DNA of 39,476 nt, taken from the NCBI GenBank assembly GCA_903874255.1, contig CAIQRN010000063.1:1-39476 (forward strand). The letters run 5' to 3'. Both the position numbers and the translations under genes were made by a program. Of the stretch, positions 18,484 through 26,532 are shown one piece after another; positions within the stretch are counted from its first letter, which is position 1, and the number at the start of each line of letters is the position of its first letter. The DNA is from an uncultured Actinomycetes bacterium (GTDB lineage Bacteria > Actinomycetota > Actinomycetes > Nanopelagicales > Nanopelagicaceae). The notes beneath the pieces were generated by a model, which ran no database searches, had not been told where the DNA came from, and saw only the letters and a program-made list of their open reading frames with translations.

Positions 18484-19482
18484 TTATCTATCCAAAAGAT
18501 TTTGTGTTGGAGAATACTTGGTTCCTGATCGGCGTTTTGCAATTGCGCTGAGGGCTTCAAGAACCACTCGGTTTGCCAAGATGGCGGTTATATCCGCGCT
18601 ATCAAAAGCTGGTGCCACCTCAACTACATCAATTCCGACAACGGGTAGTTCTAAGCAAATTCTTCGAACCGATTCCAACAACTCCCGGCTGGTCATTCCT
18701 CCGGGTTCAGGGGTTCCGGTGCCAGGTGCCATTCCTGGATCAACAACATCGATGTCAACCGAGAGAAATACACCGTCACATTCGTTAGTAAGAATGGCGA
18801 AAGATTCATCAAGAACTGCGTTGAGTCCGCGGTGATGAATTTCAGTCATTTCATAAGAGCGCATTCCTTGATCGCGCATCCAATCTAATGTTTTTGCATC
18901 TGGCCAATAGCCACGCAGCCCCAACTGCAAGAAGCGATCCCCACGGACAGTTCCTGTATCAATCAAGCGGCGCATGGGAGTTCCGTGTCCAATAAGCGCA
19001 CCCCACTGATCTTCACCAGTATCTGCATGTGCATCAAAATGAATCATCGAAATTTTGCCAAGCCCTCTGTGTCGTGCAATTCCTGCAACATCGGCAGATG
19101 CAATGGAGTGGTCTCCCCCAAGAATTACCGGAATTGCACCAGCACGTGAAATTTTCTCTGTTGCTTGCGCCAATACTTCTAGAGATGCGACAAGATCTCC
19201 GCCAGGCATTAGTAAATCTCCGGCATCAACAACTTTCATTTCTTTCAATGCATCAATGCGAAGGGCTAAATGTGGACGCTCGGCATCATGTGGCAAATAG
19301 TCACCACCACGAATTGCTTGTGGACCAAATTTTGCGCCTGATCGATGCGACGTCCCGCTATCAATTGGAGCACCAACAATTACTACATCGGCATCTGAAT
19401 ATGATGATGCAATATCCAAATCACAGCGTTCGATCCCAAGAAATGTGAAGTCGGGGCCATACATATTGCCGTGATTAGTCAT
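18484..19482 (-). CDS. speB: Agmatinase-type ureohydrolase (arginase superfamily)
   Basis: A 332-residue manganese enzyme that hydrolyses a guanidino compound to urea and an amine. Metal-binding motifs GGDHSI, DAHADTG and SVDIDVVDPGMAPGTGTPEP are complete, and the N terminus has APIDSGTSHRSGAKFGP. Among family members it looks most like agmatinase (agmatine to putrescine plus urea). Guanidinobutyrase, guanidinopropionase or guanidine hydrolase activity cannot be excluded from motifs alone. It sits 22 nt behind the FAD oxidase and in a transporter cassette for polyamines, which supports agmatine or a related compound. No arginine decarboxylase is in the window, so the substrate would come from outside or elsewhere in the genome. 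The ribosome-binding site is weak; an ATG six codons in is an alternative start. Confidence 0.88.
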   Translation of the reverse strand: MTNHGNMYGPDFTFLGIERCDLDIASSYSDADVVIVGAPIDSGTSHRSGAKFGPQAIRGGDYLPHDAERPHLALRIDALKEMKVVDAGDLLMPGGDLVASLEVLAQATEKISRAGAIPVILGGDHSIASADVAGIARHRGLGKISMIHFDAHADTGEDQWGALIGHGTPMRRLIDTGTVRGDRFLQLGLRGYWPDAKTLDWMRDQGMRSYEMTEIHHRGLNAVLDESFAILTNECDGVFLSVDIDVVDPGMAPGTGTPEPGGMTSRELLESVRRICLELPVVGIDVVEVAPAFDSADITAILANRVVLEALSAIAKRRSGTKYSPTQNLLDR

Positions 19483-19504: not shown

Positions 19505-20917
19505 TTAAGAATCAAAGCCTAAGCCGAGTACGTCAAGGAATCTCAGCCATAAATTACGCTTACCCTGATTTTGATCAGCCCTGTTTATCGACCACTGAGT
19601 TAAGCGAATAAAGATAAATTTCAACGGTTCGGGTGGAAACGGTAGCGGTTTCTTTTGCACCATCTTCAACCGAGTTCTTTCATTATCAATGCCGTCCAAT
19701 AAATCAAGCATTACCTGTGCACCAAATCGAGTAGAGCCAACACCTAGTCCGGTGTAACCCATTACATAGGCAACTCGGCCGCCAAAAGCTTTACCCCAGA
19801 ATGGCGAGAAGCGTGAACAGGTATCAATTGCGCCTCCCCATCCATGTGTGAATTTAATTCCCTTTAACTGTGGGAAAGTTTCTAGAAATGCCTCGGCCAA
19901 ATGTGCATATGTTTGTGCATCAGATTCATATTCTTGGCGAACTTTTCCGCGGAAGTTATATATAGCATCGTAACCACCCCACAATATTTCATTGTCTTTT
20001 GTAAGGCGGTAATAGTGAAATTGATTTCCGGCTTCTGATAAACCTTCACGGCCATCCCAACCAATTGATTGCATTTGTTCTTTACTTAAAGGCTCCGTAA
20101 CAAGTTGGAAGTCATAAACAGGAACTACGTATTTATGCGCCCGTTTTACTAGTGACTTAAATACATTGGTTGCCAAAGCAACTTTTTGCGCATAAACCGA
20201 ACCGTAAGGAGTGTGCACAATCATTGCAGTGCTAGTTTTTTCCAACCATTCCACATGTGTATTTTCATAAATCTTTACACCAAGCTTGAGGCAAGCCCGC
20301 TCTAAGCCCCACACTAAACGCGCAGGATCTACAAGTGCAGTGCCATCTGGATCCCACAAAGCAGCTTTAGATAATGGTGAATTGACTCTGCCTTGAATTT
20401 CATCTTGGTTGAGAACTTCTACGTTATCTCCCATTGAATTACGCAGATTTGCTTCTTCAACTAAACCTTCGATTTGCCACTCTTCATTTGCAATACGGAG
20501 TTCGCCCGTCCATTCAAACTGGCAATCAATTCCGTAACGTTTAATAGTCTCTTCAATCGCATCAAGGTTTTCACGCCCTAATCTTTCAATCACAGCCATT
20601 TCATCTTTAAATCGGCTGTAACCATTCATAAATCCATGTGTGAGCGAGTAACTGCAGAATCCGCCGTTGCGACCTGATGCACCTGCACCTGTTTCACGTT
20701 GCTCGACAATTATCACTTCACGTTCTGGGTTTTGTTCCTTGGCCAATAATGCGCTCCATAGCCCGGTATACCCAGCGCCAACAATGCATAAATCTGTTGT
20801 GACATCACCAATTAAAGTTGGATTTGCTTGAGGCTCAAGTGGATCTTCATCGAGCCAATATAATGCTGGCTGCATATGAGATAAATGTTTGAGAACGTAA
20901 GGGTCGATGGTTGCCAT
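19505..20917 (-). CDS. FAD-dependent amine oxidoreductase (DAO family, PuuB-like)
   Basis: A 470-residue flavoprotein. The FAD-binding beta-alpha-beta motif is CIVGAGYTGLWSAL (about 44-57), followed by VEQRETGAGASGRNGG, the usual stretch in DAO-family oxidases such as gamma-glutamylputrescine oxidase (PuuB). The C-terminal GYTGLGVGSTRFG contacts the flavin in this family. Context (agmatinase downstream, PotABCD and an aminobutyraldehyde-type dehydrogenase upstream) suggests it oxidises putrescine, a glutamylated polyamine or a related amine to the aldehyde, releasing ammonia and H2O2. No PuuA or PuuD is present locally, so whether the amine is glutamylated first is open. A structured 123-nt leader precedes it. 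Confidence 0.87.
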   Translation of the reverse strand: MATIDPYVLKHLSHMQPALYWLDEDPLEPQANPTLIGDVTTDLCIVGAGYTGLWSALLAKEQNPEREVIIVEQRETGAGASGRNGGFCSYSLTHGFMNGYSRFKDEMAVIERLGRENLDAIEETIKRYGIDCQFEWTGELRIANEEWQIEGLVEEANLRNSMGDNVEVLNQDEIQGRVNSPLSKAALWDPDGTALVDPARLVWGLERACLKLGVKIYENTHVEWLEKTSTAMIVHTPYGSVYAQKVALATNVFKSLVKRAHKYVVPVYDFQLVTEPLSKEQMQSIGWDGREGLSEAGNQFHYYRLTKDNEILWGGYDAIYNFRGKVRQEYESDAQTYAHLAEAFLETFPQLKGIKFTHGWGGAIDTCSRFSPFWGKAFGGRVAYVMGYTGLGVGSTRFGAQVMLDLLDGIDNERTRLKMVQKKPLPFPPEPLKFIFIRLTQWSINRADQNQGKRNLWLRFLDVLGLGFDS

Positions 20918-21040
20918 CGTGCTATCCGGCCTTGACCGGAATCACCCCTTCAATCACTACTCAGAGTTGGCCCGGGTCCTCCGGAACCTAACCCCATAAC
21001 GCAGATTCTCTTAAACAACCTGTGGTTCGTTATGGACTAG
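20918..21040 (-). promoter_or_regulatory. Candidate structured 5' leader (riboswitch-like) of the amine oxidase gene
   Basis: Between potC and the FAD oxidase the minus strand can fold extensively. Stem 1 pairs 21040-21028 with 21001-20988: 13 bp with one bulged G and two G-T pairs, including a perfect CCATAACG/CGTTATGG. Inside it AACC and GGTT form a small hairpin. Stem 2 pairs CCGG at 20984-20981 with CCGG at 20975-20972, and can extend outward through GTTAGG/CCAAC, which uses the 3' arm of stem 1, so the two compete. Stem 3 (20940-20936 with 20929-20925, 6-nt loop) buries the GGA Shine-Dalgarno bases 7 nt before the ATG. No T-run follows, so it is not an intrinsic terminator. I recognise no known riboswitch class with confidence. 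Confidence 0.55.
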
Positions 21041-21044
21041 CTGA

Positions 21045-21073
21045 ATATTACCGTGTTTTCTTTCGATTGACGA
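21045..21073 (-). promoter_or_regulatory. Candidate promoter at the end of potC
   Basis: On the minus strand TCGTCA (21073-21068) and TAATAT (21050-21045) are separated by 17 bp, giving 4/6 matches to each sigma-70-type consensus box. Transcription would begin near 21038, inside the 5' arm of the first leader stem, which is where a cis-regulatory RNA would be expected to start. Predicted from sequence only. Confidence 0.35.
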
Positions 21074-21884
21074 GTTGCCCCGCAATAACAATTGCTAAAG
21101 CTAAGAAAAACATGGCAGAACCAATGACATTTGCCTGTGCAGGGATTCCTCGTGCGGCGGCAACATAGACAAATTTAGGGAAAGTAATCAAAGTTCCTGA
21201 ATTGAAATTAGTAATAATGAAATCATCGAAAGAAAGGCTAAACGCCAAAAGTGCTGCGCCTGCAATTCCTGGCGCAACTAGAGGCAGAGTGACTCGTTTG
21301 AAAGTTTCGAGTTCGTTTGCATAGAGATCCATCGCCGCTTGTTCTAGTCTGGGATCAAGTGATGCAATTCGAGCTTTAACTGTTACAACTACGAATGAGA
21401 TACAAAACATCACGTGTGCGATAACAGTTGGCCAAAACCCTGGATTAATTTTAAATACAAGAAATAGCGAGAGCAGGGAAGCTCCAAGGACAATTTCTGG
21501 AGTTGCCATAGGTAGGAAGATTAATAGGTTTGAACTAGCACGGCCCTTAAAATGGTATCGGCCAATAGCAAAAGCGATCATAGTTCCAAGAATTGTTGAG
21601 AAAGTAGTAGCCAAAAGACCAATTTTAATTGAGTTGCCTAAAGCGTTACAGACTTCAGGCGCACCGCAAGGGTTCTGCCAATTACCTAATGTAAAGCCTT
21701 TCCAAATCAAATTGCTTTTTCCTGAATCATTAAAGGAAAATGCAAATGTGTAAGCCACTGGAATAAAGAGATACGTAAAACCGAAAATCATGTAAATACG
21801 AAGTAGGTTGCGTCCGAACCAACGGGAAAAGCGAGCTTTAAATGGGATTGTTGGGATTGATGCATCCTTAATCTTTTGTGTCAT
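21048..21884 (-). CDS. potC: Polyamine ABC transporter permease, PotC-like
   Basis: A 278-residue inner-membrane permease with about six helices. The cytoplasmic EAA loop, which docks on the ATPase, is EQAAMDLYANELETFKRVTL (about residues 175-194). The order potA-potB-potC and the family fit the spermidine/putrescine importers. Its ATG overlaps the potB stop (ATGA at 21881-21884), so both permeases should be made in equal amounts. The C terminus is short and basic (NRKKTR). A candidate promoter for the next genes overlaps its stop codon. Confidence 0.92.
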   Translation of the reverse strand: MTQKIKDASIPTIPFKARFSRWFGRNLLRIYMIFGFTYLFIPVAYTFAFSFNDSGKSNLIWKGFTLGNWQNPCGAPEVCNALGNSIKIGLLATTFSTILGTMIAFAIGRYHFKGRASSNLLIFLPMATPEIVLGASLLSLFLVFKINPGFWPTVIAHVMFCISFVVVTVKARIASLDPRLEQAAMDLYANELETFKRVTLPLVAPGIAGAALLAFSLSFDDFIITNFNSGTLITFPKFVYVAAARGIPAQANVIGSAMFFLALAIVIAGQLVNRKKTR

Positions 21885-25095: not shown

Positions 25096-25117
25096 TGGGG
25101 CGAAATACTACGCCCCA
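25096..25117 (-). promoter_or_regulatory. Stable hairpin across the dehydrogenase stop codon, before potD
   Basis: The plus strand has TGGGGCG (25096-25102), an 8-nt spacer and CGCCCCA (25111-25117), a perfect 7-bp GC-rich inverted repeat. In the minus-strand mRNA the dehydrogenase stop (TAG, 25110-25108) lies in the loop. No T-run follows, so it is not a standard terminator. It may act as an mRNA end-stabiliser or processing site that lets the binding protein be expressed differently from the enzyme. Confidence 0.5.
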
Positions 25118-26532
25118 AGGTTGGTCATGACGTGCTTGATTCGTGTGTAATCTTCAAATCCATATGCAGAAAGATCCTTGCCATATCCCGAGCGCTTGAA
25201 GCCTCCGTGTGGCATTTCGGCGACAATTGGGATGTGCGTATTTATCCAGACGCATCCAAAGTCAAAAGCCTTTGCCATCCGCATGGCTCGGCCGTGGTCC
25301 TTAGTCCAGACGCTTGAAGCCAGGCCATAATCAACGCCATTGGCCTTGGTGATGGCATCTGCCTCGTCATTAAATGGTTGAACGGTAATTACCGGTCCAA
25401 AAATCTCACTTTGAATCATCTCATCGTCCTGCTTCAAATCTGAAACAACGGTTGCAGGGAAGAAGTAGCCCGGTCTATCTAAAGCTTTGCCACCGGTTGT
25501 GACTGTTGCATGATCTGGAAGGCGGTCGAAGAAAGCGCTGACCCTGGCCAACTGGTTGGCATTATTAACTGGCCCCAGGAATACATCTTCTGACGGAGCC
25601 CCAATTGCAATGCCCTTTGCTTGCTCCGTCAATAGCGCAACGAACTCTTTGTAAACACTTGCTTCAACAATTACACGAGTCGCTGCCGTGCAATCTTGGC
25701 CCGCATTGAAATAGCCCGCAATTGCTATTGCTTCAGCTGCTGCAGGTAAATCTGCATCAGCAAAAACTACGACAGGTGCTTTTCCACCAAGTTCAAGGTG
25801 AACGCGCTTAAGTTGAGTTGCTGCAGATTGGGCCACTTGAATTCCTGCACCAACTGAACCGGTAATCGAAACCATATCTGGGCGCTTATGTTCTACAACC
25901 ATGCGTCCGGTTTCGCGCTCTCCACACACAACATTGAAAACACCATTCGGAAGAAACTCGGACATCACAGAAGCCATCCACACTGTTGATGCAGGAGTTG
26001 TATCACTTGGTTTTAACACCACCGTGTTTCCTGCTGCAATTGCAGGTGCCCATTTCCAAACTGCCATCATCATTGGATAGTTCCAAGGGGTCACTTGACC
26101 GATAACTCCAACAGGTTCGCGGCGAATCATTGAAGTCATTCCTGGCATATATTCACCAGCTGATTTGCCCTCTAAATTTCTTGCAGCACCTGCAAAAAAA
26201 CGAATCTGATCGATCATCGGTGGAACTTCTTCAGAAGTTGTTAAAGAGATTGGTTTACCTGTGTTTGTACTTTCAATATTAATGATCTCATCTGCACGCG
26301 CCTCTATTGCATCTGCAATCTTTAGTAATGCGCGCTGACGTTGCGATGGAGTTGAATCGCGCCAGCCAGGAAATGCATCACTGGCAGCTTTAAATGCGCT
26401 ATCAACATCTGCTGCATTTGATTTTGGGGCAACCGCATAAGCAGTTCCCGTTGCTGGATTGATGAGTTGTGAAGTTTCGCCGGACGTACTGTCTACGGCC
26501 TTGCCATTGATGAAGTTAGTTAACTTTTCCAT
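25108..26532 (-). CDS. Aldehyde dehydrogenase, gamma-aminobutyraldehyde dehydrogenase type
   Basis: A 474-residue NAD(P)-dependent aldehyde dehydrogenase. Features in order are the NAD site VTPWNYPMMMAVWK, GNTVVLKPSDTTP, the general-base Glu motif LELGGKAPVVV and the catalytic Cys in FNAGQDCTA. The QDCTA form is typical of the aminobutyraldehyde (PatD/Prr-like) branch. A C-terminal GFKRSGYGKDLS region completes the fold. It would oxidise 4-aminobutanal from putrescine to GABA. It is the first gene of the polyamine module, starting 29 nt after rlmN behind a GGTAGG site, so it may be read from the rlmN transcript. Confidence 0.9.
   Translation of the reverse strand: MEKLTNFINGKAVDSTSGETSQLINPATGTAYAVAPKSNAADVDSAFKAASDAFPGWRDSTPSQRQRALLKIADAIEARADEIINIESTNTGKPISLTTSEEVPPMIDQIRFFAGAARNLEGKSAGEYMPGMTSMIRREPVGVIGQVTPWNYPMMMAVWKWAPAIAAGNTVVLKPSDTTPASTVWMASVMSEFLPNGVFNVVCGERETGRMVVEHKRPDMVSITGSVGAGIQVAQSAATQLKRVHLELGGKAPVVVFADADLPAAAEAIAIAGYFNAGQDCTAATRVIVEASVYKEFVALLTEQAKGIAIGAPSEDVFLGPVNNANQLARVSAFFDRLPDHATVTTGGKALDRPGYFFPATVVSDLKQDDEMIQSEIFGPVITVQPFNDEADAITKANGVDYGLASSVWTKDHGRAMRMAKAFDFGCVWINTHIPIVAEMPHGGFKRSGYGKDLSAYGFEDYTRIKHVMTNLGA

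Follow-up and report, generated by a model that had tools for sequence, protein, structure and literature searches.

A conserved structured leader RNA with riboswitch-like features precedes a putative amine-catabolic oxidase gene in Nanopelagicaceae

In bacteriophage T4, the Shine-Dalgarno (SD) sequences of genes 38 and 25 lie at the extended distances of 22 and 27 nt from the AUG, and a hairpin brings each distant SD to a working distance; this arrangement acts constitutively (PMC3014915). Convincing polyamine riboswitches are rare. The spermidine riboswitch is a cis-acting RNA upstream of polyamine-related genes; it is built on a SAM-I four-stem junction, occurs in Bacillota before biosynthesis genes and has a terminator platform (PMC10853860). 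The leader described here resembles the T4 sites in its hairpin-spanned SD-AUG spacing of about 25 nt, and the spermidine riboswitch in its place upstream of a polyamine-related gene. Unlike the T4 sites, it has an aptamer-like domain before the bridging hairpin and a start-codon hairpin after it. Unlike the spermidine riboswitch, it consists of two hairpin domains, belongs to Nanopelagicaceae and precedes a putative amine-catabolic oxidase gene, and no terminator hairpin with a U-run, as used by intrinsic-terminator riboswitches, was found in the one sequence scanned.

The leader lies within a stretch of 39,476 nucleotides, called the window below, from a draft genome of 1.57 Mb in 131 contigs. 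This genome is closely related to Candidatus Planktophila and to further Candidatus Nanopelagicaceae, the freshwater actinobacteria known as acI. The genes and RNA elements to which the text refers are the following, in minus-strand order.

25108-26532, minus strand: aldehyde dehydrogenase gene, first in the gene run, followed by potD, potA, potB and potC
21048-21884, minus strand: potC-like permease gene, upstream of the leader; its stop codon overlaps the candidate promoter
21045-21050, minus strand: candidate -10 box TAATAT, overlapping the potC stop codon
21035-20918, minus strand: structured 5' leader in the gap between potC and the oxidase gene, conserved across Candidatus Nanopelagicaceae
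21028-21035, minus strand: P1 5' arm CCATAACG, pairing with 21001-20994; six of eight pairs covary (80 distinct sequences)
21023-21027, minus strand: conserved 5-nt bulge AACCA (GAACNA with the preceding G), near-invariant in A1 and GAANNA-like in divergent members
21017-21022, minus strand: P1b 5' arm CAGGTT, pairing with 21007-21002; all six pairs covary
21002-21007, minus strand: P1b 3' arm AATCTG (covariation alignment)
20994-21001, minus strand: P1 3' arm CGTTATGG (covariation alignment)
20987-20992, minus strand: P2 outer helix 5' arm GTTAGG with one bulged A, pairing with 20970-20966
20971-20985, minus strand: invariant core TCCGGAGGACCCGGG, the P2 inner hairpin with loop AGGAC, identical in 83 of 85 distinct leaders
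20966-20970, minus strand: P2 outer helix 3' arm CCAAC (covariation alignment)
20941-20950, minus strand: extended Shine-Dalgarno sequence AAGGGGTGAT, 5' of the bridge hairpin and about 25 nt before the AUG
20925-20940, minus strand: bridge hairpin TCCGGT-CAAG-GCCGGA, between the SD and the AUG
20905-20919, minus strand: start-codon hairpin CGATGG-CAA-CCATCG, holding the AUG and codons 2-4; consensus CG-AUGG-NNN-CCAU-CG
20899-20904, minus strand: codons 5-6, possible SD partner (ACCC or CCCTT with GGGGT or AAGGG; predicted)
19505-20917, minus strand: FAD-dependent oxidoreductase gene (Pfam DAO, PF01266), the gene probably controlled, 3' of the leader
18484-19482, minus strand: agmatinase-family hydrolase gene, after the oxidase gene

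The gap before the FAD oxidase gene and the structured leader in it, to which the first-pass annotation had drawn attention, are both real, and the oxidase starts at 20917. SCO5671 of Streptomyces coelicolor is annotated as a PuuB-like gamma-glutamylpolyamine oxidoreductase (PMC5403932). Judging from the 57-59% identity between the oxidase and its Streptomyces matches, SCO5671 is probably the Streptomyces counterpart of this gene.

Folded alone, the leader of the window is only slightly more stable than its shuffles (z = -2.0, 6/200). The existence of the structure is settled by pairing and covariation among homologues. Pairing is kept in 95% of the paired cells among 35 sequences and in 94.1% among 80 distinct sequences. 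In the latter set, both partners change in 15 of the 24 aptamer-domain pairs, and when partners are shifted out of register, pairing falls to 29-51%. Double-sided changes were found in 199 cells as compared with 46 in shuffles. When placed on a tree, 40 pair-preserving double changes stand against 2.8 +/- 1.7 under a phylogenetic null (maximum 9), a tree-based simulation built for this analysis (n = 300). Three pairs reach E<0.05 in the tree-based test, in which no covarying pair outside the structural model passed this threshold. Compensatory changes in the stems of related genomes, set beforehand as the test on which the leader could fail, are thus present. As in riboswitches, the 5' untranslated region contains a structured domain supported by covariation, and it is close to certain that the leader is a conserved structured cis-regulatory RNA.

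The consensus from the 80-sequence alignment has two hairpin domains. The first starts with P1, which was originally proposed as a 13-bp stem. Eight of these base pairs (21035-21028 with 21001-20994) stand, and the outer five, at 49% paired, do not rise above the level of shuffles. P1 is followed by the 5-nt bulge and then by the 6-bp stem P1b (21022-21017 with 21007-21002). The second domain, P2, comprises 20992-20981 paired with 20975-20966. Its outer helix covaries and is swapped for GGCGT/ATGCC in L154-L155 and for GTTGA/TCAAC in L078. The inner pairs of P2 never vary, and covariation cannot speak on their pairing. The core TCCGGAGGACCCGGG occurs once in the window, where no occurrence is expected. 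Such invariance of the core together with an unpaired bulge would be typical of a binding pocket.

P2 takes the place of the second helix set of CCGG segments that the first-pass annotation had proposed to share an arm with stem 1. In the window sequence, cross-pairing of these segments would be less stable by about 6-10 kcal/mol, and covariation does not support it. As a switch it would be possible but weaker, and the double change in a single member, L167, is too little to support it. L167 is the sole member with the core CCCGAG and the bridge stem CCAG/CTGG, a single hint that the core and the bridge may interact.

The leader probably has a promoter of its own at the end of potC. When the relatives are aligned on P1, a TANNNT box is found 8-10 nt upstream of it in about 69 of 83 distinct sequences. 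The box is also present where there is no potC upstream, in the forms TATAAT (e.g. the stand-alone L019), TATGAT and TATACT, and in genus g4 (e.g. L145) it does not overlap the potC stop codon. The window sequence gave no promoter match in a simple sigma-70 scan, and the -35 element must therefore be weak. The conserved distance of the -10 box would place the 5' end of the RNA just before stem 1, about 2 nt ahead of P1. Thus, of the promoter earlier suggested at 21073-21045, the -10 box is retained, and the RNA would start before stem 1 and not inside it.

The ribosome-binding site is formed by the extended SD AAGGGGTGAT at 20950-20941. The motif AAGGGGTG is kept in nearly all aptamer-bearing leaders, and, with the AUUCC that follows, it is predicted to form a duplex of -17.7 kcal/mol with the anti-SD tail of the 16S RNA. 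The 16S 3' end, GGATCACCTCCTTTC, was confirmed in three relatives, whose sequence was used since it was not found in the draft genome of the window. The GGA nearer to the start codon, previously taken for the SD, is not conserved and is ruled out by its absence in genus g4 (L145 and others). The hairpin at 20940-20925 exists exactly where it had been predicted; it does not cover the SD, which lies outside, 5' of the hairpin. Its stem survives sequence replacement in Nanopelagicaceae and Acidimicrobiia (TCCGG/CCGGA, TCCAACC/GGTTGGA, TCCAGC/GCTGGA), and the SD-hairpin pattern occurs once in the genome of the window. By its layout and its compensatory stem changes, this site is of the type of T4 genes 38 and 25, in which a hairpin closes a wide gap between SD and AUG, and the hairpin here probably bridges the 25 nt.

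The start codon itself lies in a further hairpin, absent from the first-pass annotation, with a 5-bp stem that 78 of 82 aptamer-bearing oxidase genes keep complete, versus 6 of 43 aptamer-less ones. Its codons are under strong constraint at synonymous sites. The third base is C in 85 of 87 genes at codon 3 (22.5 expected), in 84 at codon 4 (25.7 expected) and in 75 at codon 5 (18.1 expected), where the expectations were taken from the other codons of these genes and are naive statistics from which relatedness has not been removed. At codons 3 and 4 this choice serves the start-codon hairpin; at codon 5 it may serve the modelled pairing of the SD with codons 5-6. In the predicted folds of 75 leaders, the probability of the AUG hairpin averages 0.94, and the SD is unpaired only 24% of the time.

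Nature has also provided deletions. In L043 and L045-L048, which are closely related, P1-P2 is lost, and the -10 box, the linker, the SD and the bridge hairpin are retained; the SD has the form AGAGGTG, and the AUG hairpin lacks its outer pair. Such natural P1-P2 deletions show that the aptamer is a separable module. Comparison of these sequences suggests that the AUG hairpin appears to go along with the aptamer when the latter is lost. L060 is another natural aptamer loss that retains the SD-bridge hairpin.

The leader was present in 82 of 201 genomes of the family by DNA search and, by covariance model search, in 101 of 251 genomes of the order, all in the one family. No credible member was found outside the family among 396 phylum and 345 class genomes; two weak matches there, L141 and L142, both sit in coding sequence and are due to chance. 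A search of viral contigs for the leader core and a plasmid search gave no match. The oxidase gene is directly downstream in all 30 loci of the family DNA search and in 37 of 40 further loci, the remaining three of which stop at a contig edge. In 67 of the 70 loci retrieved, the one gene partner is thus the DAO-family oxidase, a one-pathway association of the kind known for riboswitches. The position in the middle of a polyamine operon, seen in the window, does not extend to at least four genera (g2, g6, g8 and g9), where the leader and the oxidase gene are not part of a pot operon and have phosphate-transporter-like, CorA, aldo-keto reductase or DUF4236 genes as neighbours. It is thus the oxidase, and not the operon, that the leader accompanies. 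At one locus, L200 (G167 C17:41200-49500), potC and the oxidase gene are separated by the insertion of another pot-like ABC operon, and after potC there remains a broken piece of an oxidase start that still has half of the bridge hairpin.

The orthologous oxidase genes of the Acidimicrobiia type have a different covarying leader, some 100 nt ahead of the start of the gene (L073, L076, L079-L085, L087-L092, L094, L095, L098, L099, L101 and L105). Its hairpins are GGCCGG/CCGGC and GTTCG...CGAAA, and 13 of 20 pairs, including those of the bridge hairpin, show double-sided change. Confident matches to its model in 396 phylum genomes are oxidase leaders only, and one member, L091, gave no credible match to Rfam at E<=10. 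This leader resembles that of Nanopelagicaceae in the gene it precedes, in the SD and bridge-hairpin layout and in having covarying stems, but its upstream domain is unrelated and it lacks the start-codon hairpin. At four further loci (L086, L093, L096 and L097), GCGAGAGAAGGTGA and an AGCC/GGCT-like hairpin precede the same oxidase gene; this region, unlike both leaders, is possibly a third leader type.

By combining these observations, it is possible to propose how the leader might work. Transcription would start at its own promoter at the potC end, just before P1, producing an RNA in which an aptamer-like domain (P1, bulge, P1b, P2 and the invariant core) is followed on the 3' side by a translation-control platform. 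With no signal, the predicted fold would enclose the AUG in its hairpin and let codons 5-6 pair with part of the strong SD, keeping translation low. The aptamer would then bind a small molecule connected with the reaction of the oxidase, most likely its amine substrate or the product, and binding would shift the balance, so that a 30S subunit could dock on the extended SD and cross the bridge hairpin to the AUG. We infer from the arrangement of these elements that control is translational rather than transcriptional, that a ligand is sensed, that it acts in the ON direction and that it is such an amine. The leader is most likely an orphan riboswitch-like translational regulator; it probably controls oxidase translation, perhaps by metabolite sensing. 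The original suggestion of a structured cis-acting leader with control elements at the ribosome site and its own promoter is backed by the covariation, the conserved -10 box and the SD and AUG elements. The likeliest single interpretation is a riboswitch, and a probability of about 0.58 can be given to an aptamer-like domain and translation-control platform by which an amine-linked ligand switches oxidase translation on. The fuller proposal must be held tentatively, at somewhat less than even odds: that the leader is a riboswitch of a new class, responding to a polyamine or some other amine that the oxidase handles, and that it switches translation on via the bridge hairpin and a start-codon hairpin encoded within the gene itself, with an unrelated aptamer-like domain on the same SD-bridge module in Acidimicrobiia.

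The switching step itself is not visible, since no covarying alternative helix links P1-P2 to the SD or the AUG, and a motif confined to one family and one gene would also suit a protein-binding or a purely structural leader. P1-P2 could be the target of a protein, be it the oxidase or a dedicated regulator, that controls translation of the oxidase, as the sole gene partner, the narrow distribution and the invariant loop AGGAC on a conserved stem might suggest. Such an operator is nevertheless unlikely, because the combination of a GAANNA bulge with an invariant 15-nt core exceeds most operators in complexity, and no gene for an RNA-binding regulator travels with the leader in the neighbourhoods examined. 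It is also conceivable that the leader senses nothing, and that it protects the mRNA while the SD, bridge and AUG fix the rate of translation. Constitutive action is known for hairpins that bridge SD and AUG, as in T4 genes 38 and 25 (PMC3014915), and some relatives without the aptamer domain retain the SD and the bridge. Conservation of the core far beyond the needs of stability makes this quite unlikely, as does the start-codon hairpin, which tracks the aptamer and would lower rather than raise translation.

That both AUG and SD lie in predicted helices could point to an RNA thermometer in which heat melts them, but a thermometer needs neither the invariant core nor the bulge, and the AUG hairpin of the window is strongly GC-closed with a predicted probability of about 1.0, which makes this reading very improbable. 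Attenuation by a leader peptide, as in speF, is scarcely credible. The window does have a short open reading frame across the core (MGLGSGGPGPTLSSD), whose stop codon abuts the SD; a start without an in-frame stop is found in only 44 of 85 leaders, and the core, read as TCC GGA GGA CCC GGG, has no synonymous change other than two single departures. The alignment thus largely refutes a conserved upstream frame encoding an arrest peptide. Finally, the chance that the leader belongs, in diverged form, to a riboswitch class already known is next to negligible. The short resemblance TTAGGTTCCG to the ykkC family (guanidine-I, ppGpp, PRPP) seen at first reading is a 10-nt string only, and the relation is rejected because the window leader matches none of the 4227 covariance models of Rfam 15, either at the gathering threshold or at E<=10. 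The same scan gave no match to the SAM clan, whose SAM-I-like four-stem aptamer is the basis of the spermidine riboswitch, a variant that works by termination (PMC10853860). A scan of the divergent L155 leader at E<=10 returned only below-threshold matches to miRNA, lncRNA and eukaryotic elements.

The leader thus is an RNA family new to Rfam, although a known kind of device. No earlier description was found in searches of the openly accessible literature, and the acI genome paper searched for only four Rfam riboswitch models (PMC5301498), so that the leader would have escaped notice. With more than 100 members, a constant gene partner and no Rfam entry, the family is directly testable, and the natural aptamer losses (L043, L045, L046, L047, L048 and L060) can be used as natural controls. 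According to the acI genome paper, the Nanopelagicaceae (acI) rank first in abundance among the bacteria of most freshwater lakes, and spermidine/putrescine uptake is among the few transport capacities common to all four acI genomes that it compared (PMC5301498). The different leaders before one gene in two classes suggest that RNA control has been invented repeatedly for one enzyme. If the ligand is an amine, the leader would represent a second, unrelated solution to the problem of a polyamine riboswitch.
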